A DNA stretch of 64,000 nt. Origin: Sphagnum magellanicum (taxonomy: Eukaryota; Streptophyta; Sphagnopsida; Sphagnales; Sphagnaceae). The stretch is taken from the NCBI GenBank assembly GCA_021904315.1, contig CM038913.1, positions 8,059,958 to 8,123,957 of the forward strand, in the 5' to 3' direction. The notes beneath the pieces are model-generated. The model was not told where the DNA came from, made no database searches, and was given only the letters and a program-made list of their open reading frames with translations. Position numbers and translations under genes: made by a program. This document shows, one piece after another, positions 14,452-63,927 of this stretch (the stretch's first letter is position 1; every line of letters begins with the position of its first letter).

Positions 14452-16440
14452 ATGGAGGTTGCTCATCTATCCTCGGGTTCAGGAAGTTGGACGTGGTTGT
14501 TAGCTGTGCCTATGCTCCTCGCCGAGCAACCTGGGCGCTCCTCCTCCTCCTCCTCCTCCTCCTCCTCTGCGCATCAGCAGCTTGTAGAGATTGAATCCGG
14601 GTCTTCGACTTTGATGAGTTCCTGGTGTGTTTTGTCGGCTAGTCTTGCCATCATCAGCGTCTGGGTATTCCTGGTGTGGGGGTTGTTTCCTGGCGGAAGC
14701 GGCTGGGGCGGTTCGCTCCTCACAACAGGCAAGCAGAACAACAGCAACTTCATACCCGGACCTCGAGGCTTACCTGTGCTTGGAAACTTGATGGAGATGG
14801 GCGGACTCGCACACAGGCGCTTGACGCAACTGGCGCAAAAGCATGGAGCTCTTTCCCTCATGTCGCTCAGTCTTGGCAACACTCGAGTGATCATCTCCAG
14901 CAAGCCAGAGACTGCGCGTGAGATTCTGAACAGCTCGTCTTTCGCGAATCGACCAGTGAAGCAATCCGCACAGCAGTTGTTGTTCGGACGCGCGATGGGG
15001 TTCGCGCCTCAAGGGGACTATTGGAGGAGTCTGAGGAGGATTGCGGCGAACCATTTGTTTGCGCCCAAGAGAATTGCAGCACATGAGGACGCACGACAGC
15101 TTGAAACTGAGCAAGCACTAGTGTCCATAGCCAAGGAATCCTCATCAACTCCTGGAGGCGCAGTTCAAATTCGTGGCCACTTACAGCATGCGTCTCTGAA
15201 CAATATCATGAGTGGCGTGTTCGGTCGTCGCTACAAATTGGATGCGGACGATTGCGCGGAAGCGGTGCAGCTGAAGGAGATGGTGCAGGAAGGTTTTGAG
15301 CTTCTTGGTGCTTTCAATTGGGCTGATCATCTTCCTGCTCTGGAAGCTGTCGATCCTTACAACATCCATCAGCGCTGCGCCAAGCTTGTTCCTCGAGTAA
15401 CTGCATTTGTTCAAAAGATTATCGACCAGCACCGAGAGCGTGCCGTGAGATCAGGAGCCCCCACTGAAGAAGACTCCGACTTTGTCGACTTTGTCGACGT
15501 TCTTTTGTCTCTGGAGGGCGAAGAAAAGCTATCGGATACTGATGCTGTAGCTGTTCTGTGGGTCAGTTTCCTGTCCTCCTGAGCTCTACTTCAATTGCAG
15601 CACCACCACCCTTTTGATATAGTTGCGGCTGTTGTAATAGAAGCTCTTGTTGTCTTTTCTGTGGAGAAGATCAGGCATTTGTCTTCTCGGTTTCCTCTAT
15701 CAAAATTACTTTATAGGACTACATGCAATTTTGGACACAATGCCGCATGCTTCATGCACATTCCAGCTGCACATTACTGAGAGTGTGGTTGAATGGAACT
15801 TTCTCTGCAGGAGATGATTTTCAGAGGCACAGACACCACAGCGATTCTAACGGAATGGATCATGGCAGAGTTGGTACTGCACCCCGAAATTCAAGCCAAA
15901 CTTCATGCGGAACTGGACGCTGTGGTGGGTAAAGAGAGAGACGTGCGTGATTCAGACATAGTAAGCCTGCATTATTTGCAAGCAGTTGTGAAGGAGACGC
16001 TGAGGATTCATCCTCCAGGTCCCCTTCTCTCCTGGGCTCGTCTTTCCACCGAAGACGTTCAAGTCGCTGGACATCTCGTTCCTAAGGGCACTACGGCAAT
16101 GGTGAACATGTGGGCAATCACCCACGATCCATCCATCTGGGCCAATCCCCAGAATTTCAGCCCCGAGCGATTTCTATCTAGTGAAGGAGGAGCTGATATC
16201 GACATAAGGGGAAACGATCTTCGTCTAGCACCATTCGGAGCTGGACGTCGTGTGTGCCCTGGACGGGCTTTGGGTATGGCGACAGTGCAGCTGTGGCTGG
16301 CTCAGTTGCTTCAAAAGTTTGAATGGGTAGCTTCCACTGACCACCCAGTCGATCTCAGCGAAGTTCTGAAGCTTTCTTGTGAGATGGTTCATCCACTGCA
16401 CTCAATTCCTCTGCCCAGGACCAATCTCATACACATCTAG
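14452..16440 (+). CDS. CYP78A: Cytochrome P450, CYP78A family
   Basis: A two-exon gene: exon 1 is 14452-15561 and exon 2 is 15811-16440. The 249-bp phase-0 intron begins GTCAGT and ends CTCTGCAG, giving 579 residues. Visible features: a Ser run at residues 30-39; a membrane anchor at about 58-79; proline hinge PGPRG at 102-106; I-helix RGTDTT at 375-380; KETLR (ExxR) at 431-435; PERF at 488-491; heme loop [10 protein letters not shown] at 512-521 with Cys519 as iron ligand. The phrases [32 protein letters not shown] and [12 protein letters not shown], and the intron site just before EMIFRGTDT, mark CYP78A. Members sit in the ER and control organ and seed size, probably by oxidising a still unknown, fatty-acid-like substrate. 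Met55 (14614) is an alternative start that would give 525 residues, the usual family length. The gene is much richer in GC than its surroundings. Confidence 0.95.
14539..14568 (+). repeat. Coding (TCC)n microsatellite
   Basis: A run of TCC/CTC triplets encodes ten consecutive serines at residues 30-39 of the P450, ahead of the membrane anchor. It lies in the N-terminal extension that would be absent if Met55 were the real start. Confidence 0.85.
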
Positions 16441-25329: not shown

Positions 25330-26460
25330 GTAAAAATCCAATTTAACTACAATATATACCCCATATTGTGTAATCCATAAACACCTTATGCTTAATCATT
25401 TTTGCCTATGTTATCAGAGGGGTATTGCTCATGACTAGAAAGATGAAATGAATGTGCAATATCCCTTTTGGGGTATTCGAGAATTGTTTTTGGGGTCAAT
25501 CAATTATCTTTTCACACTTTGAGGTGTGTTGCATAGTAACCCTACCAAAACCCAAAAGGAAAGTAATATACTCTCACTAGGGTATTATATAAAACACCAT
25601 GGGCTGATTCATTTTCGCCTATGCTATTGTATGGGGTATTGTTCATGACCAATAGTTGGGATGAACATCTAATACCCCTATCATGGTATCTCATAAATGC
25701 TTTGGGGTCAATTACATATATTTTGACACTTCTAAAGGTATTGCATAACCCTACCAAAATTAACATAAAAGGAAAGTAATACTTGCATTGGGGTATTTTA
25801 TAAAACACCATGGGCAAAATCATTTTGGCCTATGCTATTGGAAAGGTATTGTTCATGACCAAAAGGATGGAGTGAAGCTGCATTGCCCCTTTCAAGGTAT
25901 CCTAGAAATGCCTTAAGGTTAATCACATATATTTTGACAATTAATGGGATATTGCATAACCATACCAAAACTTAAAGGGAAATCAATACCCTAATTGGGG
26001 TATTCTGTAAAACACCACAAGCTAAATCATTTTCCACATAAGCTATTCAAAGGGTATTACTCATGGCCAAAAAGATGGAATATCTTAGAATCAATCACAT
26101 ATCTTTTTACACTAAATGGAGTATTGCATAAACCTACCAAAACCTAGAGGGGAATAAATACCCTTGCTAGGGTATTCTATAAAACACCATGGGCTAAACC
26201 ATTGTCCACCTAAGTTATTCGAAGGGTATTGTTCATGACCAAAAGGATGGAATTAATTGTAGTAGACTTATCTAGGTATTCTAGAAATGCTTTGGGCTTA
26301 ATCACATATCTATCTACATTATGTGGAATATTGCATAAACCTAGCAACCAAACCCTAGAGATAAAGTGATACCCTTGTTCGGTATTTTGTAAAACAACAT
26401 GGATAGAATCATTTTTGCCTAGGCCATCAAAGGGGTATTGCTCATGTCCAAAAAACTTCA
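25330..26460 (+). repeat. ~208-bp tandem array, left arm
   Basis: The landmark AAAACACCATGGGC or a variant recurs at 25378, 25592, 25802, 26009, 26181 and 26391, a spacing of 172-214 bp. Each unit also carries GGGTATTGTTCATGACC- and GTATTGCATAACC-like words and GGGTATTYTRTAAAACACC. Reverse-strand ORFs here are repeat artefacts. Confidence 0.85.
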
Positions 26461-27759
26461 ATTACCTTGTAATACCCCACTCAGGGTATCCCAAAATGTC
26501 ATACATATTGATTTAAGTAAATGAAGGTAACGCAAAGTTGGACACATTGATGGTATTTTATGGAAGAACTTGAAAAAAATTATAAAGCTTAAATGTCAAA
26601 TTTACTATTGAATGTTAGAATTCAGGTTTTGGGGGGGGGCGGGAATGGTTCATTAATAACATTTCTTCAATGATGTACATATTTATGTTTTTTCCCTTTA
26701 AAAGATGTAAATTCATTTCAAGAAAACAAAAACTTAAAGTTCCTTATTTAATCAAATTTGAATGATCCTTTTCAAAAAAACAAAATTAAAGCACATGATT
26801 TACTACTTTTTAAAATTGTTCATATAATAATAATAAAATGATATATTTTCCATATATTAATCTTATGTATGATTGAAATTATTTTTTATAGTTTTCTAAC
26901 ATATAATGAATAATTTCTCACCTAAAATAATTATATAGTAGGTCATTAATATTTTTAAAATCATAACACAAGTTTTTATGTAAATTTTGTTTTTTATGAT
27001 GTATAATATTGGCATAAATATTGGTCTAAATATATTTTTGTTTTTAACATATTGAATAATAAAATATATTTAATTAATAATATTATGAAATTATAATTTT
27101 GATTCATTTTAATACATATAATATCTTCATATTTATTTAAAATAGGACAACAATTATATATATATATATATATATACAATATATATACATTAAATGTAAA
27201 TTTAATATATATAGAACCATTGTTATGTATAGTGCAATTTGTTTGTGATGTTTTTTATATTTAAAAAAAACTTAAACATTCCAAAAAACTTAAGTTATTA
27301 ACATTGTATATTTTATGAATGCATATAACTAAATACTTATTATATGTAAATTGAAATTTATGGAATAACATATCAAATAATGCCAATATTGATCAATAAT
27401 TTTGTGACACTTTAATTTGTATTCCATTTTTTATTAAAAATATATATTTTCTTCATCTTTTATTAAAAGTAAAACACATGTAAAGTTTTTTTGAATAAAT
27501 GAATGGTTAATTATGATTCAAAAAATTAAATGGTACATAAACTTTCAATTTTTTGTTTTAAAAATATTCTAATTGAAGTAATGATATAATTAATTAATTA
27601 ATGTGTGAAATTATATATTTATTTATTTCTAGAGATATAATATCTGCCTAATTATTTTAACTTGGTAGAAATTTTAATTAAACATTAAATATAGTTGAAA
27701 GACATTTTCAAATTCATAAACAACAAGAATTTTTTAATGGACCAATGCAAGATGGTTAA

Positions 27760-28075
27760 TATATATAAATGAAGGTATTGCATAATTAACCACATTGTTA
27801 GTGTAAGCAAACATGAATAAGGTTTAGAAGTGTAATTGTAATACCCTCATTGTGTTGTGATAATGTCATAAATCATGAAATAAATGATTTTTTTCTTACA
27901 AACTTATTCCATGCTCAATATATCATGCCATGTCCATATTATAACAAGTAAATAAGGGTACATTGCAAAATTGGTCACATTGATAGTATTGAACAAAATC
28001 TTGAAATGTAAATGCAATACCTCGTTTTATTGTGATAATTCCATTGACCATGAGACATAAAAATGATTTTTTTCA
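27760..28075. repeat. Direct duplication at palindrome centre
   Basis: Two ~130-bp copies start near 27770 and 27950. Each runs from AAATRAGGGTAC/AAATGAAGGTA with ATTGCA, through CACATTGNTAGT, to AAATGATTTTTTTC. They sit at the centre of the inverted repeat. The same phrase (AAATGAAGGTAACGCAAAGT near 26525 and its mirror near 29660) borders the AT-rich arms. Confidence 0.6.
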
Positions 28076-29639
28076 AATTAAATTAAAAATTGATATTAAT
28101 ACACTAATTCTATTTTTTGAATCATAAGTAACATTCATTTATTGAAAGAAAATTTACATGTATTTTATTCTAATACAAAAGGTGTGCACATTAAACTGTC
28201 AAAAATTTATTGATCATATATGGTATTATTTGATATGTTATAAATTAAATTTCAATTACATGCATTAATAAAATATAAAATGTTAATAACTTATCTTTTG
28301 GAATTTTAAAATTCTCTTTAATTCTAAAAAACATTAGAACAAATTGCAATATACATAACAATGGATTTATTTATATTAAATTTACATTTAATATTTTTTT
28401 ATTCAATACCATCTTATTTTAAATTATTTAATATTACGATATCATGTCTATTAAAATGAATAAAAAATATAAGTTTAAAAAATTATTAATTATACATAAT
28501 ATATTATTCTATATAAACAAAAATATATTTAAAGACCAATATTGTAGCCAATATTATACATCATAAAAAATTTACATGAATACTTGTGTTCCATATTCAT
28601 AAAATATTAAAAATTAAAAATCTACTATATAATTAGTGTAGGTGAAAAATTAGTTAGTATATGAAAAAAAAACCATAAAATAAAAATTCAATCATGCATA
28701 GGATTAATATATGGGAGAGGTATCAACTTTTATTATTATGTGAACCATTAAATAATGCTGACATCATGTGTTGTAAATTTTATTTTAACAACCATAAAAT
28801 TTTCATTAAATAATAAACTTTAAGTTTTTGTTTTTTTGAAATGGGTTTGCAACTTTAAGTGGGGAAAAAAAATAATAATAATAATATATATATATATGTA
28901 TATCATTAGAGAAATGTTCAAAATGAACTTGTAATTTGTTGCTTTAGAAAAAACATGAATTCCAGCATTAGGTTATAAATTACACATCAAACCGTAAACC
29001 ATAAACCCTTTCTACCATCAATGTGACCAATTTTTCATAACCTTTATATTATCTATCTATGAAGCAAGGTAATTTGTTTTGTTTTGTATTTATGATATCC
29101 ATTGAACCGGGATGCTTCAAATCACATTCTTGGTCTCTTTGGAAAGCTCTTGAAGAGGAGGTGTGCATTGGCTTGGTTTCATGTTGTTTGGATTTGCAGT
29201 GTAGAAGTTATTGAATATTGAATGATTTCTTCATTGAAAATTAAATAAAATACTAGCTGAAAATTTTGGAAGAATTGGAATGTGCCTATGGTGTTGTTGG
29301 AAAGATCTTGATGAATAGGATTTAATGGAATTTATTTGGTAAGATTTGGATTTAAAATGTGGGGGATATTGATTTATGTTGCTGAAAATTCAAATTTTTT
29401 TTGAAAAACCAAGTTTTGGAAGGAAAAATCAGTTAAGGACATGGACGAGTTCACACCTAGGCCAACGACACAAACCACATTAGTACATATTAACAAAGAA
29501 ATTTGAAAACATGAATTTCATGATATATTGTGGGGGGATCAATTATTCAAAAAAATTATTATGTTTTATGGTGAATGCAAATTTCCTAATTTGATGTAGG
29601 TATTGCATTTAAATTCCATAATTTTGTTCAACTAAACCT

Positions 29640-30430
29640 TTTACCATCAATGTGAACAACTTTGTAATACCTTCATTTACTTGAATCAATGTGTTTGGCA
29701 TGATATAATGAGCATGAAATAAGTATTTAAAAAAAAACCTTTTGTTTCACAGTTTACGATATTATCATAAAATGATGTGAGTATTACTTTCCTTCTAGGT
29801 TTTGCTAGGGTTATGCAATACCCTTCCAAATTTCAAAAGATATGTTATTGAGCCCAAAGGATTTATGGGATATTATGAGAGGGGTAGTGCATGTGAATTG
29901 AATAGTTTTGGGCATGAACAAAACCCCTCCGATAGTTCAAACCAAAATAATTGACCCATGGTGTTTGTAGATTACCCCAATGAGAGTATTATTTTCCTTT
30001 TAAGTTTTGGTATGGCTATGCAATACCTTTCTAGGTTTCAATATATATGTGATGGAGTTCAAAGGATTTTCAATATACCCCAAAAGATGTATTACACATG
30101 CATTGAATAATTATGGGCACAAGCAATACCCCTCTAATAACCTAGACCAAAATAATTCAGTCCATGATGTTTACAAAATACCCTCATGTTAGGTTATTGC
30201 TTTCCTTTTAGGTTTTGGTATGGCTATGCAATACCCTTCCAAGAATCAATAGATATGTTATGGAGCCCAAAGGATTTCTAATATACCTTAATAGGGGTAT
30301 TGCACACGCATTGAGTAATAATTTTGGGCATGAGTAGTACCCTTTCGATAACCTATACCAAAAAAATTCCACCCATGGTGTTTACATAATACCTTCATAA
30401 GGGTATTATTTTCCTTCTAAGTTTGAACTT
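29640..30430 (-). repeat. ~208-bp tandem array, right arm (inverted)
   Basis: Reverse-oriented copies of the left-arm unit, with landmark CCCATGGTGTTT or a variant at 29954, 30161 and 30372 (207- and 211-bp spacing). TATGCAATACCCTTCC words occur at about 29813 and 30225. Confidence 0.8.
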
Positions 30431-39859: not shown

Positions 39860-40520
39860 TATGGAGAACATATGATATGGTATATGGCCATAATTGTAAA
39901 TTTTAAATTACAATACTCGTAAGTCTATTTTAAATCCATAACTATGGATAATATAAATGTAATACCCACATGATAGTTAACAAACTGCATTATTTATGGA
40001 CGAAGGAAATGTAATACTTGTATGACAATTTAAATATGCACACTATATATGGGGCAAAATGTAATACCCACATTATGACCTTAATCAACACTATATGTGA
40101 GAGCCTTAAATGCAATACTTGCATGTAATTTAAAGATGCACACTATATATGGGGGCAAAATGCAATACCCACATTATGACCTAAATCCACATTATATGTT
40201 GTAGCCCTAAATGTAATACTTGCACAACAATTTAAAGATGCACATTGTATGTTGCAACAAAGTGTAATACCCACATTGTGACTTTAATCCACACTATATA
40301 TGGAAGAGGGAAACGCAATGCTTACATGACAATTTATGGATGTAAATTGTATGTGAGGGCAAAATGCAATATTCACGTTATGACTTTAATCCACACTATA
40401 TATGGGAGAGGGAAATGCAATGCTTGCATGACAATTTAAAAATGCACATTCTATGTGGGTGGGAAAATGCAATATTGGCATTATGACCTTAAATCCACAC
40501 TATTTATGGGAGGCCAAAAT
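39860..40520. repeat. ~102-bp tandem array
   Basis: AATACCC or AATATTC landmarks recur at 39961, 40063, 40164, 40266, 40368 and 40471 (101-103 bp apart). Each unit also has TTAATCCACACTATATATGG, a GCAATGCTTGCATGACAATT-type phrase and GATGCACA. The array ends about 60 bp before the retrotransposon's left LTR-like segment. Its TGCAATACCCAC words resemble those in the 25-30 kb arrays. Confidence 0.85.
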
Positions 40521-40584: not shown

Positions 40585-40905
40585 TGTCATGTTCGTATGC
40601 ATGGCCTCATACATGATGGCCAGTTACGGGCATGCCAATCATGCTTTTAGGGTTAGTGTATGTTCTTAGGTTATTGTACGCTATTAGGTGTTTTAGGGTT
40701 ATGGCTTGTTTAGGGTTTCAACTTTGTTGATGATTGTATAAAAGGTTAGGCTTTACCCTTATTTGTTTAATTTTTTATAAAAAAATTCGTCAAGGAAAGT
40801 TTCTTCCATAGTCAAATTGGATTTCTATATGTTCACAATGGCTATTACACGGCCACCATTTACATACACTACGTTGTCTTTCTTTCTTTTCGATTTAATT
40901 TGATT
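40585..40905 (+). repeat. 5' LTR-like segment
   Basis: About 320 bp align with 49161-49490: TGTCATG at the start, GCATGCCAATCATGCTTTTA, GGTTATTGTACGCTATTAGG, the TATAAAA box, then AGTTTCTTCCATAGTCA and ATGGCCACC-like words. Homology is lost at about 40905, whereas the right copy continues to 49672. Confidence 0.8.
40737..40743 (+). promoter_or_regulatory. LTR TATA box
   Basis: TATAAAA lies 152 bp into the left LTR-like segment; the right copy has the same box at 49331-49337. This is where a plant LTR promoter is expected. Confidence 0.65.
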
Positions 40906-42257: not shown

Positions 42258-43780
42258 TTGTTACCTCTACACCCATATACACCATGGAAGTCAGTAGTTT
42301 TTTTTGGGAGAATTGAGAAGTTCAGTGAAAGGCCAAGTACCATTTCCTTGAGGGAGTTCAAGGCAACTTTCTTAATTATGGTTTGTGAATTGGAGCTCAA
42401 GTATGGCACTAATTACATCGAAGTGTTTATATTCAACAATTAGCCCGCTATGTGCACTATGAGACATTAATGTCTACGAACAATATTTTCGGAGGATTGT
42501 GGATGTCACCCAGATCCCCAATCTAGCTTATGCCATAGTCATCGCCATCACCTCTCAAGCTACATTACAAGCTGTAATTGCACATCATGGGGACTATGCC
42601 CAATAATCTAGATCTGATACCTATTTCAGTAAACCTTTTTCCTTAACAACTTATTGCTACTACCGAAAACATTCCTCCCCCCATCGATGCACTAGCTTTT
42701 GTTGATCCAATGAGGAATTCATTTGAGTTCTTGAATTGGAATTTTTGGTTAAAAGTTTGAAAAAGTTCTGCAGCTCACCACCTTCTCTAGGCAGAAGGAT
42801 GAAACGTCAAGATGCTTTACAAGAGGTTTTTCAAGCTTAAAGAGGATACTTAGAGCATCATAGACCTGGAAGCTGCCCATTGGTATCTTCATTTGTTGGA
42901 AGGTACTCTAACACTCCATGTGTAGGTTTTTCAACGAGTTTTTGTAGAATTTGGAGACTCATATGTTTTGCTGGATGTGTACAACAATTCTAAAAAGCTG
43001 GAACTAGCTCATGCACATTATGAGGCCAATACTATGAGGCCTCCATCACATTTGAAGCTTCAGCCTCCAATTGCGCTAACCAAATCATCACATTCTTCTT
43101 CAAGGGCTAAAGCGATGCACTCAACTACACCCATCCTACCTTCTTGCAACTATCGTGGCAATCCTACCCACAAAGTTAGTGAGTGCAACATTCCTTCCGA
43201 GGATCTCTTTTGTGATTATTGTAGGAAAAAGGGACATTAGGAAGCTATTTGTTTTGTCAAGTTCCTGGAACGAAAGCAATTTCGATTACCATGGCAAAAT
43301 TTGCTAGCATCTTCCGTTGCCCCTCAACCAAAAGCCAAGGCACCTTAACCTTCCATTCAGGCTTTCCCCACTAAGGGTAATTCTAGTAAGAATACTGAAA
43401 AGAAGGAGCACAAGGTTGATAAGAAGGAGGTGCTTCAAGCCCATGCCGTTTAAATTCAAATTCTACAAAATGAATTTGAATCATTAAGGGCCTAACTTGC
43501 TAATCTAAAAAGCAAGTCTTCCCAACCAGCTAGTCAAGCCCAACCTGTATAAGGTTCAGGATCACAGGAGCAACCTCCTAGGTCATTCTATGGCTTCTCA
43601 CACGATGCCATGGTTAGGGAGTATGTTTTTTCTAGTGCACACAATTTTAATCTCCCACCAAAATTTGCCACTTCTTTTTGCCCTTCCTACTTCGCGACAT
43701 AAGACACTAGTGTGGCACCCAGAGTTTCTGCCACTAGGTAGGTAATTTAGATTGATGGACTCACATCTGGTTCAAATGCT
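42258..43780 (+). pseudogene. Retrotransposon gag
   Basis: Broken gag. An N-terminal part (SLREFKATFLIMVCELELKY, 42340-42410) is followed by a capsid-like segment with LYKRFFKLKED near 42815 and EFGDSYVLLDVYNNSKKLEL near 42950. A nucleocapsid part follows, with an altered knuckle CNYRGNPTHKVSEC and a good CCHC knuckle CDYCRKKGHxEAIC near 43215-43256, then a Lys/Gln-rich linker. Several stops occur, for example after KGH at 43240. Gag packages the element RNA into particles. Family assignment rests on position and the zinc knuckle. Confidence 0.7.
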
Positions 43781-44099: not shown

Positions 44100-44770
44100 A
44101 GGTCCTTTACTAATCCCTGATCCACATGCTATAAGGGTCCCATCCAACACCTTGGAGAGACATTTGATTGGCTCACGTGTTAGAAATGGCATTCGTAATC
44201 TAGTCATTAGTTTTAGCATGGCTAAACTAGTGGGCTTTCCTACCTTTGATTTTACATTCACATATCAGAAGGGAATTAAGAACACTTCACTTGTGGATTT
44301 GTTATTCAACAAAGGCGTTGTGGATAGCCATTCTTTCCACAAAGTTTTTCACTCATTTTCGAAGGTGGTGTTTAGTGAGAGAACTTCCATCACCACCGAA
44401 GTTGCCATTGTCGACAATATTGAGTCATTAATCTAGGTGGGAGGACATACACCTATAGTGGTACTTCTTGATATAGGTGCCCAACTAGTGATTCTTGGAG
44501 TTCAATTTGCCAAGAAGATGGGCATGCTCGACTCCAAACTACAAAAATCTATATGACAAATTTACACCGTTAGTGAGAGCGTAGAGGAGGTATTTGGGGA
44601 AAGCTCAAAATTGATTGCACTTAATTTCAATGAAAGTACAAATCAAGAGCTTTGCTTATAGGTCAAATGTTTTGTCACCAATGCCACCAGTTAAGATGTG
44701 CTCATTGGACAAGAAGCCCTATTTCCACCAAGTTTCATAATTGACAACTGGTTTGAGCATGTGTACTACT
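44100..44770 (+). pseudogene. Retrotransposon aspartic protease
   Basis: The frame from 44152 continues past one stop into PIVVLLDIGAQLVILGVQFA at about 44455-44515. This is the retropepsin active-site segment, with the usual Asp-Thr-Gly changed to Asp-Ile-Gly (Asp codon 44470-44472). A later LIGQEALFPP segment near 44705 fits the end of the domain. The protease would cut the Gag-Pol precursor; this copy is inactive. Confidence 0.6.
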
Positions 44771-45120
44771 GAGTAGATTGGGAGACTGATGGCCACCACC
44801 TGGGATAAACATCCCTTGATTTACATGGGAACCATAGTCCTATGGCTCACCATTGTATGTTCAAGGAAGCACACACTATTTCCTACATCCAATAAACTAA
44901 CCATGAGTGGATAAAAGGAGATGAAAAGAAAACACCCAAGCTACTGAAAACTTGAGGGTGGTTCTTACGGACATTCAACATGGACCAAAGGTTTTATAGA
45001 GGTTCAAAGTAGCCCACGAGCCTTTGGTCAAAACGCTATCTAGTTTTGAAAGCATGGGCAGCCATAGCGAACTAATTAAATTAATATTTTGTTAGCTAAT
45101 CACCTAGACACCACCTAAGG

Positions 45121-46100
45121 AGGGGATTACATTACTAGAACTCTTTGGTGGTATTGGTACAAGTCTCGAAGCCTTACTACAGTCAGGGATGGTGGTTTGG
45201 AGGTATTTTTATGTAGACATTGATCCTATTGTAAGGCAAGTGGCAGTTTAAAAAATGATGGAGCTCACAACCAGATTTCCACAATAGTTTGCAACCACCA
45301 CATGGAAGGCTAATTTCGCTTTCTTACCCTCTAACATACAATTAATTCAAAAGAAGCATATGGAATTTCTTGGCCTTGTGGACCTCATCATTTCAAGTTG
45401 GGAGTGTCAAGGATTTTCAATAGTTGGATTTGGAAAAGGCTTGAGTGACACAAGATTTGGTCTTTTTGCGAACATGGTATGATTGATCACCTAGGCTCAA
45501 TCCATTTCTCCTATGCTTGGTTATGTAATTGAAAACACCCCTTTTTAATTTGACCAGAGGGATAAAATCAAAGAGCATTACACGTTGGTCAAGCATTACC
45601 TTGGAGAACCATTCCTATTCAAAGCAACACAATGCGATTCCTATGCGCACTAGCTGCGCAACTAGTGGACCAACCTTGCACCACTTTTAGTTATGTAGTT
45701 GGCTTTGAAATAACCATTAGAGACCCCAACCTATAGGTTTCTCACATATTGGATTATTAAAGCTCCTGCCAACCAATTACAAGGCAAGAGAAACCTCTTT
45801 GGTTTCTTGTGAACATAATAGGAAAACCAAGAGGTGTTTGGCCCACCTTTGTTTCCTTCCCAGGAACACACACCTTTTAGGGAGATGGACCAAGCTTAGT
45901 GTATTGTCATGCTTCAGCCACTTGGGATGAACCAAACCCAGAAGAAATAGAAAGGGCTATGGGGTTCCAAATTGACATTACTAGTCATTCCAAGGTGATT
46001 AGATTGGAGTGCTTTACTAGGGAGAGGCATGGACTTGAACTTCTTTACATGGTTGTTGGTAACTTGTGTATTCTTTCAAATGTACACAACAGTAGCACTG
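45121..46100 (+). pseudogene. C5-cytosine DNA methyltransferase domain in retrotransposon
   Basis: In one frame from 45124, with stops, the sequence shows the ordered motifs of C5-cytosine methyltransferases. Motif I: LLELFGGIGTSLEALLQSG (45135-45190), the SAM-binding loop. Motif II: YVDIDP. Motif IV: DLIISSWECQGFS (45381-45419), with the catalytic Cys codon at 45405-45407 (ECQ instead of PCQ), followed by GFGKGLSDTRFGLF as in GLxDxRSxLF. Motif VI-like: YVIENTPF near 45525. Motif VIII-like: AHxLRNxWTNLAP near 45647, as in the FWGNLP region of DNMT3/DRM. Near the end comes NPEEIERAMGFQ (another frame, 45937) and LLGRGMDLN before 46050. It lies between protease and RT. These enzymes transfer a methyl group from SAM to cytosine C5. 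This copy has at least ten stops and frame changes, so it is dead. The call rests on motif order, not on a database search. Confidence 0.8.
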
Positions 46101-46499
46101 ATTCAATCATCTTATAGTTCTGGCGATGCGACTACATGGCATCCCGACCAAATACATTTGAATATCTTCAACACTCTACACTACACTCTTAATGTTGGGG
46201 GGGGAAGGAAGTACCATGTAATTTGACTCAAGTTGTTTCTGATACACTTGGAGGTACATCAGTTTCTGGAAAAACAATTACAACCTTCTATGAATCTACA
46301 TAGTTGGATAGTGGAGAACCCAATACACCAGGTTTTTCAACCTCACTTTCCAACTCCATTTTCTTTCCAACTACCCTTTCATTATGGGGAACCAGCTCAC
46401 CAAGAAGGACAGAAACCAGGTCACAAATTTGGTAATTAAGTATGAAAATGTGTTCGCATTTTCAAAGAAAGACTTAGGTAGGTGTAAAACCATGTAGTT

Positions 46500-47780
46500 A
46501 TTTATAGACCTTATAGATGAGACACTCATCTATCGGAGGAGGCATAGGTTGAACAAACATGAATGGGAATTGGTAGACGAAAGGTGCAAAGAGCTCCATG
46601 AGGCTAGTATCATTCAACCATCAAGTTTTGATTTCTTAGCCGTTATAATAATGCCAGCAAAAAAAAACTCAGTTAGATTATGGACTGAGAAAAGGATGTG
46701 TGGGGATTATAGGTCTTTGAACCTGGTTACACCTCAGGACAGGTACCCCATGCCCATCCTTAAAGAACTATTTGATAGCATTGGAGATTCAAACATTTTC
46801 ACAATTGTGGAAATAAGGCAAGGCTTTAACCAAATTATGTTCGCTACGAAGGAACATAAGAAAAGGACATTCTATGGAAGTAATAAGTTGTGGGAATGGC
46901 TTGTGATGCCTTTTGGATTAAAAAATGCACCTTTCTTCTTTCAACGAGTCATGGACCAGGTTTTTAAAAGGGCAGATTTCTTGAAATGCTACATAGATGA
47001 TGTCCAAGTGCATAGTAAGGGACTCTTACAACACTTGACTCATTTTGAAGAGTTATTCAAGAGGCTCCACGAAGTTAATATGAAGATCCATCTTTAAAAA
47101 TGTGAGTTTGTTGTCACTTCAGTAGTCTACTTTAGACACAAAATTTTGCCAAATGGTATTATGGTTCATTGGGCCAAAGTAGTAGCCATTTTGGAGATGC
47201 CCAATCCTACCGATGTTCACACTTTGAGGAGCTTCATCAGATTATGTAATTACTATAGGATTTATGTCCAAGATTTCAGTACTATTGCTCATCCTTTCTA
47301 TGCATTGTTAAAGAATGATGTTACGTGGACATGGAGTGAAGAGGCTCAAGAAGCTTTCAACACACTCAAGGAATAGCTTTTAGAGTTCCCCATTCAAAGA
47401 AGACCTGATTTCAACAAGGTCTTCATTCTATAGACTAACTGGCGTGCTCTTGGTATTAGTGCTATTTTTGGCCAACTTGATGAGGAAGGCAAGGAATATG
47501 TTATCGCCTATCCATCCCGAAGCAACAATAAGGCTAAGAGCAACTATTTTTCATACAAGGGGGAGTGTCTTGCTATTATATGGGCAATCATACATTTCAG
47601 GCCCTGTCTTTATGGCGCCAAGTTCACTTTGTATATCGACCACCAGCCTATCAAGTGGTTGATGACCAACGACGAGCTTATTGGTAAGTTAGCTTGTTGG
47701 GTGCTTATACTTCAGGGGTATGAATTCAAGGTTATTCACTGACCTGGTATTACACATCAGAACACGAATACCATGTGATG
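46500..47780 (+). pseudogene. Retrotransposon reverse transcriptase and RNase H
   Basis: The open part 46549-47097 holds the RT palm: RMCGDYRSLNLVTPQDRYPM, FTIVEIRQGFNQI, WLVMPFGLKNAPFFFQRVMD and CYIDDVQV (YIDD at 46990-47001). The first catalytic Asp, expected as VDLRxGxxQ, is Glu (46810-46812). After a stop the connection continues (47146-47376, LRSFIRLCNYYRIYV), then RNase H with TNWRALGISAIFGQ, NNKAKSNYFSYKGECLAIIW and LYIDHQPIKWL. The first RNase H Asp is Asn (codon 47437-47439, a G-to-A change). The RT-RNase H order and wording are those of Ty3/gypsy elements. Confidence 0.9.
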
Positions 47781-48149
47781 GAGACCCCTCACTACCTCTG
47801 AAGATTTCTTAGAAGCTAAACAATACTTTGACCATATTCCAGTAGTACATGTATCTTATGCATTTAATTATTTTGCACTACTACAATGTAACTTGGTTGA
47901 GCATCCCATTGTGGATATATGGGAGGACTTGGACACTATGAGGTTTCTTCAGCATGGGGAATACCCTCCCCAAGTTACATCAAGTCATCAGGATTGCATA
48001 CAATAGCGATCCAAATGCTACCCATGGAGGGACAATCACCTCATCCGTTGCTTACCACAAGGCGACGGAGTGGTTCCTCCACCACATGAACAGTTTGGTC
48101 TTTTTAGAAGATACACTTGTAGCTTTGACATTTTGGAGTTAAACGTACT

Positions 48150-48990
48150 TATAGCCTTCTCGCTCCTCATTACCATTCGAAAGGTATCGCTCAAGTTCGA
48201 GATGTCATTGCTAGGTGTGAACAATGTGATAGAGTGAGAATTTCCTTCTCCTCTCAACAGCTCACGCTTTCTCCACTCCCTATTCAAGGCATGTTCTATC
48301 ACTAATCATGTGATTTAGTTGGAGAGTTACCACAAACTTCCAAGGGTAATGTTTACATCATGATTATGATTGAGCATTTTTCAAAGTGGGTCGAACTTGT
48401 TGCGCTACCGGACAAATCATCACACATCACCAACTAGGTTTTCTTACAACAAGTCCTAAGTAGGTTTGGGGCTTGTGCTGAGTGCCTTATTGATCAAGGA
48501 TTAAAATTCAAAGGAGAATTCCAAGACCTATTTGATCATGCTCTCATTGACCATCGCTAGACTTCAAGGGATCATCCCCAAGCTAATGGCCTTGTAAAAA
48601 GGATGGTTCAGACATGTAAGAAGGGACTTCGAAAGATTTGCGTCACTGGGAACAAAGAGGATTGGGACTTGGCCCTACCTTACGTCACCATGGGTTATAG
48701 GATGTCTAAACATGCTTTTTTATTTCATTTCACTTCTTACTTTCTACTTTTTAAGAGACATCCCATTCCACCCTCTTCCATTGTTACTTAAATGGACCAG
48801 GCTGTGGACTTGGATTCCCTAGCCACTTAAGCTAGGGTCATCATAGAGAGGGCTGTTCTATTCAGGAGGGTTATGCTCATGGCCATGGAAAATTTGTCCA
48901 TTGCATAGCATCGAGACACCTTATAGTATGCACACACATGAGGTGGCAGTTATAAATTTAAGGTGAGATAATTTGATATTAGTGATTTCG
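48150..48990 (+). pseudogene. Retrotransposon integrase
   Basis: The zinc-binding HHCC end is visible as HYHSKGIAQVRDVIARCEQC (48168-48230). The catalytic core has CDLVGELP (first Asp at 48312), CLIDQGLKFKGEF (second Asp at 48492) and, 35 codons later, HPQANGLVKRMVQT. The expected catalytic Glu is Lys (48597-48599), a GAA-to-AAA change. A C-terminal segment ends FKVRxFDISDFVYLQH at about 49003 and then stops abruptly; no chromodomain-like tail follows. Confidence 0.88.
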
Positions 48991-49010: not shown

Positions 49011-49042
49011 GATGCACGCACATATATATATGTGCGTGCATC
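49011..49042. repeat. Perfect 32-bp palindrome at retroelement 3' junction
   Basis: GATGCACGCACATATA is followed directly by its exact reverse complement. It lies between the end of the integrase frame and the first LTR-tail copy. Confidence 0.9.
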
Positions 49043-49158
49043 TCTTTTTGGTTGATTAGTTTCTACCTTTGACCAATTTTGGTTTTTTTGTTTAATAAAA
49101 TTTACTATGGATTTATACCCTTACGACATCGAACGTCACAACATCACACGTCACAACA
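49021..49158 (+). repeat. Extra LTR tail ahead of 3' LTR
   Basis: This segment, from ATATATATATGTG through TTGGTTGATTAGTTTCTACC, TTTACTATGGATTTA and CACGTCACAACA, repeats 49535-49672, the end of the right LTR. It ends two bases before TGTCATG at 49161, where the LTR starts. The arrangement is LTR end followed by a full LTR, as left by recombination between elements or by a tandem LTR. Confidence 0.7.
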
Positions 49159-49160
49159 AT

Positions 49161-49672
49161 TGTCATGCTTGTATGCATGGCTTCACACATGACGGCTAGT
49201 TACAAGCATGCCAATCATGCTTTTAAGGTTAATGTACATTTTAAAGTTACTGTACGTTTTTAGGTTATTGTACGCTATTAGGTGTTTTAGGGTTATGGCT
49301 TGTTTAGGGTTTCAGTTTTGTTGACGGCTGTATAAAAGGTCAAGCTCTTCCCTTCTTTTTTCAATTTTTCTAGAATTCCTTTGTCAGGGAAAGTTTCTTC
49401 CATAGTCAGACTAGATTTCTAAATGCTCATGACGGCTATTACATGGCCACCATTCACATACATTACTTTTTTTTCCTTCTTTTCGATTCAATTTAATATA
49501 CATGAGAATTTCATCTTAGCCTCCTCTTGTGCATTGTATATATATGTGTGTGCATATTTTTTTGGTTGATTAGTTTCTACCTTTGATTGGTTTTAGTCTT
49601 TTTGTTCAATAGAGTTTACTATGGATTTACACCCTTATGACATCGAGCATCATGACACTACACGTCACAACA
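49161..49672 (+). repeat. 3' LTR-like segment
   Basis: 512 bp starting TGTCATG and ending CACAACA (TG...CA ends). The first ~330 bp match the left segment at 40585-40905. The last ~140 bp match 49021-49158. The TATAAAA box is at 49331-49337. Confidence 0.7.
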
Positions 49673-50780
49673 CATCTAAGGAGATTAATTTCCTTAAATT
49701 AAGAATAAAAAAATTTTAAAAATAAGAAAATGATTAAGAAAAAAATCATACAATTGGTGTTAAAAGATGATATCACATTCAAAGGAGTTATACTTTGATT
49801 TGAAAACACAACCTAAATAAATCAACACACAATTCATTAAACTTAAAACTTAAAACCCTAAATAATCCTAATGGTAAATGTTTTCAACTTGATGATTATA
49901 CAAACAAAACTACAAATGGAATACAAAAAAGATTTATAACAACTATGTTTTGAATTTTAAAGTTAATCAACTAAAAATTATAATGAATGGAAGCATTAGC
50001 CTTAGAGTTTAAAATTAATTACCCCAAAATATTATATGTAAACCTAAACAATTTTGATGGTAAATGTCATAAAAATTAATAACTATATAAACATATACAA
50101 ATGCCATACAAAATAATCTTTTAGGAGTGAACGATGAATTAAAATTGAAACACAATGAAAGGAAGAAAAATAAAATGAATGAAATAAAAGTTTATTCTTT
50201 TATCTTTAGTGTGGTCACCAAAACTTGAAGGCCCAACATGAGACCTTTTTCATTCACCTTCAAAAGAAATAAAATGAATATTGTTGCAAATATTTTTATT
50301 TGAAGATTTGGCCAAATTTCCCCCTCAAAATCCAACCTATGATTGATTTTGATTAGTATTAAAAATTGTGCAAATATTCATAAATGTTTGATGTCTTTTT
50401 AACTATAAATTTATCAAGCCTATTCTTTAATTAAATTAAGTATATCTTGCATTAAATGGTCCAAAGTGGAGGTAGAGGACTATTGCCAAAAACATTCTCG
50501 CAATTGTAATACCCACATTTGGGGTTAACGGTTTATTGTCATCATGAGTTTGAATCAAGCTACAAATATATGTTACAATTCCTTTGCAATACCCACATTT
50601 TACATTATAATTTTTGCAATTGAAGTCCACAATTTACAAGTGCATAAGTAGGTATGATGACATGTGGTTAGGTAGGTTTTGCTAATAAGTAGATGGTTTG
50701 CTAATAATTAAAGTGGCATTATTGAAAAATGTGTATACTCTTTTAGTTAATTTTTGGAGTAGGAATTAGGTAGAAGTTTA
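49673..50780. other. AT-rich intergenic DNA
   Basis: No gene. Near 50505 and 50590 the phrase GTAATACCCACATTT / GCAATACCCACATTT occurs twice about 85 bp apart, again echoing the AATACCC arrays at 25-30 and 40 kb. Confidence 0.55.
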
Positions 50781-51430
50781 AGTAATAAAATATATAGATT
50801 TTTCCAAGAAATAGAAGTTTATCCAAGAAGAAATATAGGTTTAGCCAAGAGATACAAGTTTAACCAAGAAAAAATATAGGTTTAACTAAAAGAAATAAGT
50901 TTAATTAAAAAGATATATAGGTTTTGCCAAAGGATAAAAATTTAACAAAAAATAAATATAAATTTACCCAAGAAATATAAGTTTAACCAAGGAGAAATAT
51001 AGGTTTAGCCAAGAGATATAAGTTTAGCCAAGAAGAAATATAAGTTTTGCCAAGAGAGAGAAGTTTAGCCAATAAGATATATAAGTTTAACCAAAGGAGA
51101 GAAGTTTAGCCAGTAAGATATATATGTTTAGTCAAGAGAGAGAAGTTTAGCCAATAAAATATGTAGGTTTAGCTAAGAAAAGAGAAGTTTAATCAAGAAA
51201 TATAAGTTTAACCAAAAAGAAATATAGGTTTAGCCAAGAGATAGAAGTTTAATCAATGAGATATATAAGTTTAGCTAAAAGATAGAAGTTTAGCCAAAAA
51301 GAAATATAGATTTAACCAAGAAATAGAAGTTAGTTAATAAGATATATAGGTTTAGCCAAGAAATAGATGTTTAGCCAAGAAAAAATACAAGTTTAGCCAA
51401 AAAAGGAGTTTTGCCAAGGTAAGTAAGAGA
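50780..51430 (+). repeat. ~39-bp minisatellite of two half-units
   Basis: About 16 copies of a ~39-bp unit made of two ~19-20-bp halves: AAGTTTAGCCAAGAAGAAAT then ATAGGTTTAGCCAAGAGATA. CCAAGA is the most constant part; changes are mostly substitutions, with AAAAGA and AATAAG variants. Stops occur in all frames, so it is not a repeat protein. Confidence 0.9.
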
Positions 51431-61986: not shown

Positions 61987-63927
61987 TCAAAGTTCGGAGA
62001 GAATGGAAGGGATGTAGTGGGAAAGCTCAGCTGTGAGAGATTGAAAGCCAATGACAAGATTTGAGTGGAAGTCTTGGTCCTCCTCACCTATTAAACGGGC
62101 ATGAATGCGGATAGCTTTTTTGCAAACAGCCATAAACTCAAGCAAAGCTGCTATAAGTTCTTGAAGCTCTTGAGATCGTAACCTTGTGGCTGGCTCCTCT
62201 GACAAGAATGCTGTACATACTCCTAACACACCACTGTTAACCTGCCAAATTGCCAAACAATGTATGTCAGTTCCCAATGAACTTGGTCAATGCATGTCCA
62301 GTGCAAAATGATGAACTGTCCTATGTCTCTATTCATCACTCATTGGTAGCTAACATTGGTTTTGATGAGAGTGGGTTCAGTCACATATCAAAGAATCCAG
62401 ATCTTGGTTCTGATATGAACTGGGTTGCACCTGAATGATCATGCATTGTTGTACTTCCAGAAAGAAGCCAGAAGTAAGCACAGACAGAGTAAAAGGAAAC
62501 CAGAATCGGACAATAACAAACAAGAAAACAATACATAACATTAACAAATTTACTCTATAGACAAGGAAAATAAAAAAAGGTTTCACATTGGTTCAAAAGA
62601 AAATACCTGCACAGCAACACTGCCTTGTAAAATTCGTTGCAAGCTTTGCAAGCGAGGAGCTTGATCTCCATCAAGCCGGTCATGCTCTTCAACTTCTCCT
62701 GCCAGTGCTGCAGTACGGGTCTCTATCATTCCAATTGCATTCTCAATGGGTGCAAACTCCCGTGACTCTGACCTCACCACCAGAAGACGGTTCAAAAGAG
62801 CTGGAAATGGACCTTCTGTTTGTAAAACTGTTCGTCGCTTCCATTGGTCCTCCAATCCACCTTGATTGCGCCCATTCTTTGTGAAAGGAGTGTCAAAGAG
62901 GAACCGATCAAAGACTTGTGAAGTCACCCTAGCAGACCTTGATGACTTTCTTTCTTTCCGAATATCCAAGTCTCTATCATCAAGGACTGGATCAACTGAT
63001 GTAATTTGCAAATAACACACTCCAGCTTTCAAGTCTCGTGCAACTACTTGTCCAGAATCAGGAATAATGTGTAAGGTTTGACCACCTTCAATGACCATAC
63101 TTTCATAAATGTTACCCATCACTTGCATGATGTCCCCAAGGCGGACATCTTGTGCCTCTCGATAGACATATTCTTTTCCATCAAGTTTGCCAAAGCGACT
63201 TCCATAGAATCCTACACGGTAATATGTTGCATCCTTGAATGGAATTGGGCTTGATTCTTGCTCTTGCAAAGACTCATATATACTACATAAGGATGTATGG
63301 CACTTGGACAGTTGTCCATAAGCTCGCCTCATTTTGTGGACTGGAATTATGAGCTCTAAAATGTCCACACAGAAGTGGAAAAGTTCTGCTTGGACAAAAA
63401 GTTTGTTTGCAAGTTGCAAGTATTTGACAGCAGATTCAACTGTGAGCTTTGATGCACCGTAGCCTTCAACTTCTGCTGCTGCTGCTTCTCCAACAACAGC
63501 ACCTTTCAGCATTGGGCATATTTGGCATAAGGCTTCTACATGCTCTTTCCCCCAGATGTTGTCCTTTTGGCCCAGTATGGCCTGCAAGAACCCAATCACA
63601 TTCAAATTTATTCTTGAGTTTGGACCATGGGTACATAACTCTGGTTACAATGAAGATTCAAAGTTGGATTAACAAAAAGCAGTATAGCTCCTTACAGATA
63701 AGAATGCAGCAGTAAAGCAGTGATAGAATGTGCTAATTCACCTGCATAATAACACCAGCAACAGCAACAGCACATTGGGCAGCCTCTGCCCAGGATTGAT
63801 TTTGTTGATGAGCATCACAAAGATATAGGAGCCACATGATGTGGAGATCAGGTACATGTGCATAAGCCCAGGCCAGCCCATGAAAACCCTCTGTCATTCC
63901 ATACTTGTCTGTCATTGTTCCTGGCGA
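61987..63927 (-). CDS. SPK1: SPIKE1-type DOCK guanine exchange factor, 3' part
   Basis: The three last exons on the minus strand are 63742-63927, 62607-63581 and 61987-62241. All junctions are phase 0, with donors GTGAAT and GTATTT and acceptors ending TTGCAG and GGCAG. They encode about 470 residues ending IPSILSEL and TGA. The gene continues past the right edge. The sequence is the C-terminal DHR-2 (DOCKER) domain: GFHGLAWAYAHVPDLHIMWL; SAVKYLQLANKLF; ATYYRVGFYG with KEYVYRE; DRFLFDTPFTKNG; QGGLEDQWKRRTVLQTEG; ENAIGMIETRT; LQGSVAVQVNSGVL. SPIKE1 activates ROP GTPases at the ER and cell periphery, acts upstream of the WAVE-ARP2/3 pathway, and shapes epidermal cells. The last intron splits the LQGSVAVQ/VNSGVL segment that carries the nucleotide-sensor region in DOCK proteins. 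The outer exon could start 6 bp earlier (63933), since two AGs are close together. Confidence 0.93.

Follow-up and report, generated by a model that had tools for sequence, protein, structure and literature searches.

The window (the whole stretch of 64,000 nucleotides of Sphagnum magellanicum DNA that was analysed) contains a C5-cytosine methyltransferase domain at 45117-46040 on the + strand, sited between the protease and the reverse transcriptase (RT) of a decayed Ty3/gypsy element. The element has two direct long terminal repeats (LTRs), whose cores at 40585-40904 (5' LTR, with its 3' end not fixed) and 49161-49497 (3' LTR) both lie on the + strand, start with TG and align with each other over about 320 bases. 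Between the two LTRs, the + strand carries a gag-like piece (42926-43240; open over 104 codons, with a zinc-knuckle-like Cys/His spacing seen by eye and no match to a Pfam gag family), an aspartic protease piece with the motif VVLLDIGA (44437-44721; PF13975, E 0.0015, 19.5 bits, under the cut-off of 28.2), the methyltransferase, a nearly open spacer in the frame of methyltransferase motif X (46078-46436), the RT (46402-47130; RVT_1, E 6.2e-19; 46684-47130 in a second scan), RNase H (47332-47721; PF17917, E 8.5e-27; in a longer frame PF17917 at 47407-47721 and PF17919 at 47332-47631), and an integrase that comprises an H2C2 zinc-binding piece and the rve core (48108-48575; PF17921, E 3.7e-6, 27.4 bits at a cut-off of 25.5). 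The rve core (PF00665) scored 29.6 and 32.4 bits in two scans, both under its cut-off of 32.6. The best solved-structure match of the RT is the Ty3 RT (4ol8, E 7.7e-26), and Ty3 Gag-Pol is likewise among the best matches. With two direct LTRs, with protease, RT, RNase H and integrase in this order, and with an RT of the Ty3 type, the element qualifies as a Ty3/gypsy LTR retrotransposon, of which it is an old and defunct copy; the single orientation that the original prediction gave for gag, RT, RNase H and integrase holds for these pieces and for the protease too.

The LTR cores differ at 49 of 319 ungapped sites (K2P 0.177), a divergence that would mean about 40 or about 126 million years at substitution rates of 2.2e-9 or 0.7e-9 per site per year, respectively. 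The outer ends of the LTRs are not fixed, and the LTR ends are blurred by a 136-base stretch that is repeated on either side of the 3' LTR core (49023-49158 and 49537-49672; 85% alike) but not clearly matched by anything near the 5' LTR. No target-site duplication of the element was identified by eye, and a search for an initiator tRNA-Met primer-binding site, with up to three mismatches allowed, gave no conspicuous candidate (33 matches in the window vs 39.1 expected). Tandem repeats were observed next to the element, with at least four units of about 102 bases immediately upstream of the 5' LTR (39955-40520) and, just past the element, an array in which a unit of about 41 bases recurs (50730-51405).

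The methyltransferase had been predicted from the letters of 45121-46100, and the Pfam search proposed as a check bears it out: PF00145 (DNA_methylase) matches 45288-45500 with 30.7 bits (E 2.9e-7) and exceeds the curated cut-off of 22, and it scores 27.1 bits when the entire frame is scanned with X at the stops. The domain is also matched by PHROG 116 (phrog_116, E 1.5e-8) and by TIGR00675 (dcm; E 1.2e-6), the latter with 28.5 bits and thus far under its curated cut-off of 100.65. A viral methyltransferase profile has its sole significant place in the six frames of the window at 45117-45584 (E 3.3e-13; next E 0.15); the 69 rows of this profile had been selected for their resemblance to the window, which makes it partly circular and its E-value flattering, whereas the Pfam profile is independent. 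DNMT3B as a lone query reaches the same place only at E 0.13. The presence of a methyltransferase domain at this place, beyond chance, is confirmed.

The motifs are numbered here in what we take to be the usual scheme (I-X). Those recognised by eye, each with its place checked, are motif I (LELFGGIGT; FGGIGT at 45144-45161), motif II (YVDIDP, 45210-45227), motif IV (WECQGFS; Cys codon at 45405-45407), motif VI (IENTPF; ENT at 45531-45539) and motif VIII (AHxLRNxWTNLAP, 45645-45683), and they lie in the N-terminal part of the domain (45117-45800, +), which occupies one frame with nine stops and is the part found by PF00145 and the viral profile. Two frame changes follow after about 45800; the motif IX piece (45800-46015, +; EIERAMGF at 45944-45967) is in another frame than the N-terminal part, and the motif X piece (45999-46076, +; LLGRGMDLN at 46014-46040) is back in the first frame. 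The order along the + strand is canonical (I, II, IV, VI, VIII, IX, X), and the order predicted for motifs I, II, IV, VI and VIII is thus confirmed. Taken singly, motifs IX and X are weak, and it is mainly their position and order that speak for them. Among 5000 shuffles each, the score of the motif IX piece was reached by 47 against DNMT3B and by 417 against a phage enzyme, where it aligns to the wrong motif, and the score of the motif X piece by 94 against a phage motif X and by 2203 against DNMT3B; of the predicted C-terminal LLGRGMDLN segment, the place and order stand, but a likeness to DNMT3B does not gain support from the shuffles.

The catalytic Cys had been placed at the correct codon, and the surrounding motif is ECQ, not PCQ, with Cys and Gln kept and Pro replaced by Glu; this may be a weakening that was already in the copy or its branch. 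The domain does not have an intact reading frame: there are nine stops in the 227 codons of 45120-45800, as there are in one of the two other frames, and with a mean of 9.3 stops in shuffles (P 0.51) the frame is no more open than these.

A DNMT3- or DRM-like branch had been proposed for the domain. Membership of DRM was rejected, since motifs I to X follow each other in canonical, not rearranged, order, which is not the DRM layout. DRM2 is absent from the 30 solved-structure matches up to E 10, though present in the library. The DNMT3 half of the proposal is favoured by the best solved-structure match, DNMT3A, but this reaches only E 0.04 (followed by M.HhaI at 0.12 and, lower, DNMT2 at 0.7), and the LLGR of motif X resembles the LLGRSW of DNMT3B with a likeness that is not significant by shuffling. 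A tree was built from 39 rows, namely the window, DNMT3B, two Dcm rows and 35 out of 86 rows of viral and phage or plasmid origin, a sampling biased to viral look-alikes. It leaves the window row on a branch of 4.65 without a supported neighbour, with the bootstrap not settled; a starred branch that unites four rows, the Dcm rows among them, excludes it, and no clade is assigned from this tree. The DNMT3-like identity of the domain is hence worded here as a lean, not a result.

Relatives of the domain were searched for in viral, phage and plasmid collections, in which misses are uninformative on plants. The best 20 of 317 records matched in a phage collection are 25-28% identical to the domain. 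An alignment query of IMG/VR yielded at least 600 stretches, with at least 147 confirmed, and the 80 that were kept are 22-32% identical; the domain as query gave five stretches that fit the pattern and the RT as query gave three, none of them confirmed. A back-translated motif query of IMG/VR was prompted by WPCQGHS- and WTNLAP-like motifs, which we take to occur in the proteins of algal elements, and found seven loci, of which none matches the RT and a single one, L093, matches the domain (28%, E 6e-7). The plasmids gave weak bacterial matches in 42 records, with a best E of 1e-3 among the 10 listed. The C5 methyltransferases of phages and viral contigs have a motif VIII (YWTN) similar to the WTN of the window, and for one phage enzyme (L002) the best solved match is DNMT3B; compared with these enzymes, the window has about 20 additional residues between motifs II and IV.

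The closest known kind of element is KnitGypsy-Dnmt3 of Klebsormidium nitens, which de Mendoza et al. (2018, PMC5890265) describe as a Gypsy element with a Dnmt3 in the Pol ORF that is under purifying selection. A Gypsy-type element and a non-rearranged cytosine methyltransferase in the pol region are common to both, and for KnitGypsy-Dnmt3 the relation to Dnmt3 is stated in that paper. The host of KnitGypsy-Dnmt3 is a charophyte alga and its copies are reported there to keep their DNMT under purifying selection, whereas the element described here is one dead copy in a land plant; the repeats of KnitGypsy-Dnmt3 are DIRS-like according to a figure legend (PMC5890265), whereas those of the present element are direct LTRs, and the two are likened by description, not by sequence. 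The same paper describes SymbioDIRS-Dnmt3 and SymbioLINE-Dnmt, retrotransposons of Symbiodinium with a built-in cytosine methyltransferase, which in SymbioDIRS-Dnmt3 is in one ORF with the RT (PMC5890265); these belong to other retrotransposon classes and other hosts. Of their enzymes, that of the DIRS element carries out de novo CG methylation according to the authors, and that of the LINE element produced no DNA methylation in yeast; methylation of cDNA, so that the DNA is not taken as foreign, is one of several roles that the authors suggest (PMC5890265). The original prediction had likewise named dinoflagellates and a charophyte alga as groups with such retrotransposons. Methyltransferase-bearing transposons are stated to be absent from tracheophytes in a 2019 paper (PMC6338049), and no report of a land-plant retrotransposon with a cytosine methyltransferase was recognised in the open-licence PMC literature, with reports elsewhere or in repeat databases being possible.

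We favour, with a probability of about 0.63, the reading that the locus is a dead Ty3/gypsy copy in which pol once encoded protease, C5-cytosine methyltransferase, RT, RNase H and integrase; we infer that an ancestor of the element took up the methyltransferase domain, which would then have become part of pol. Read in the frame of motif X, the 119 codons of the spacer that separates methyltransferase from RT (46078-46436) contain a single stop (shuffle P 0.062), and a longer stretch that was picked post hoc for its openness (45999-46436) has one stop in 146 codons (P 0.011); the near-open spacer is a hint, at the level of reading frames, of one former pol frame. The G+C content of the methyltransferase segment (0.38-0.43) is similar to that of the inner element, and is 0.28-0.36 at the LTRs (five 300-base steps, at 40500, 40800, 48900, 49200 and 49500). 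The segment had been described as free of any sign of a separate insertion. This holds for the strand, which is that of the element, and for bracketing repeats, in that no pair of at least 14 bases encloses the domain within 44600-46600 (of the three short pairs of this length found there, two direct and one inverted, none lies around it, and shorter target-site duplications would escape). The spacer on the protease side (44770-45119) is open in no frame (8, 8 and 9 stops) and gives no hint of a shared pol frame.

The decay of the domain bears on its former function. The stops per codons are 5/240 for the protease block, 9/227 for the methyltransferase, 2/232 for the RT, 2/214 for the RNase H region (3/215 with the closing stop counted) and 7/267 for the integrase. 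The methyltransferase thus has more stops than RT and RNase H together (4/446, p 0.013; 5/447 with the closing stop counted, p 0.021; both uncorrected), which suggests that it was perhaps functionless before insertion; the methyltransferase may have failed before the copy was made, or the RT may have kept few stops by chance. A family in which the domain was already catalytically dead, and only filled space or had a structural role in pol, would fit the ECQ in place of PCQ and the stop count, which is the highest among the five pol blocks. We regard such an inactive passenger, which overlaps with the favoured reading and differs from it in function only, as unlikely: the differences in stop density across the five blocks are not significant (p 0.12), all stops in the copy may postdate its insertion, and the order of the motifs is preserved.

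It is likewise unlikely, in our view, that a retrocopy of a host DNMT3 (or other methyltransferase) gene landed by chance in this one element of a family without the domain. A single copy is known, the domain frame does not exceed shuffles in openness and is richer in stops than RT and RNase H (against protease and integrase, with 12/507, the uncorrected p is 0.24), and the closed protease-side spacer would agree with such a landing; furthermore, non-rearranged DNMT3 host genes are retained in gymnosperms, and not in angiosperms, according to Yaari et al. (2019, PMC6453930). However, the domain is on the same strand as the element and is placed between protease and RT, its spacer runs nearly open into the RT leader, and the repeat search, blind as it is to duplications shorter than 14 bases, found no bracketing pair. 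The plant DNMT3 proteins are encoded by host genes outside transposons and have a C-terminal DUF3444 in that paper (PMC6453930), whereas the present domain is inside a pol region; a plant DNMT3 host gene is a possible donor of the domain to the element as well. The suggestion that decayed DNA resembles a methyltransferase by chance, to which the lone DNMT3B query and the shuffles of motif X against DNMT3B would lend themselves, was rejected as exceedingly improbable on account of the PF00145 match above its curated cut-off, together with several motifs in correct order and a viral profile that hits one place in the six frames of the window.

Under the favoured reading of a methyltransferase within pol, active copies would have made the enzyme jointly with the RT, and it would have entered the particle. 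Either ahead of integration or in its course, it could then have marked the new cDNA of the element or the chromatin where the copy inserts. Delivery with the RT to new cDNA would be the most economical reading, since the pol position is of the same kind as in the algal elements. The likely gain, by analogy, would be that new copies resemble the methylated repeats of the host rather than foreign DNA. Cytosine methylation is one of the principal ways in which transposons are silenced in plants, and an element equipped with a methyltransferase would make the mark of the host a part of its own life cycle.

A more far-reaching proposal is that a land-plant lineage of Ty3/gypsy elements has long carried a working methyltransferase between protease and RT, with which it marked its own cDNA or insertion sites, and that self-methylating retrotransposons thus extend beyond algae, either through an old streptophyte lineage to which the Klebsormidium element also belongs or through a further independent capture. 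We put this forward tentatively, at somewhat below even odds; descent from an old streptophyte lineage and a donor among host genes are here given equal weight. As known from one dead copy, this is a retrotransposon methyltransferase whose host group was assumed to be free of such elements. If further copies bear it out, the published statement of absence no longer stands, and the role of the enzyme could be tested in large plant genomes that are rich in repeats and for which methylation data exist.

Elsewhere in the window, several diverged direct and inverted repeats (25378-30424; the longest 0.6-0.9 kb, about 70% alike) are possibly the arms of an old element. Pieces of a gene for a DHR-2 domain of the DOCK type, presumably SPIKE1-like, are found at 61990-63644 (-); together with a P450 gene, they mark the window as most likely nuclear DNA of a land plant. 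A cytochrome P450 gene, which we take to be CYP78A-like, lies at 14452-16437 (+) with seemingly two exons, both open; the four best solved matches of the exon at 15793-16437 are ferruginol synthase, sugiol synthase, isoflavone synthase and cinnamate 4-hydroxylase, all presumably plant enzymes.
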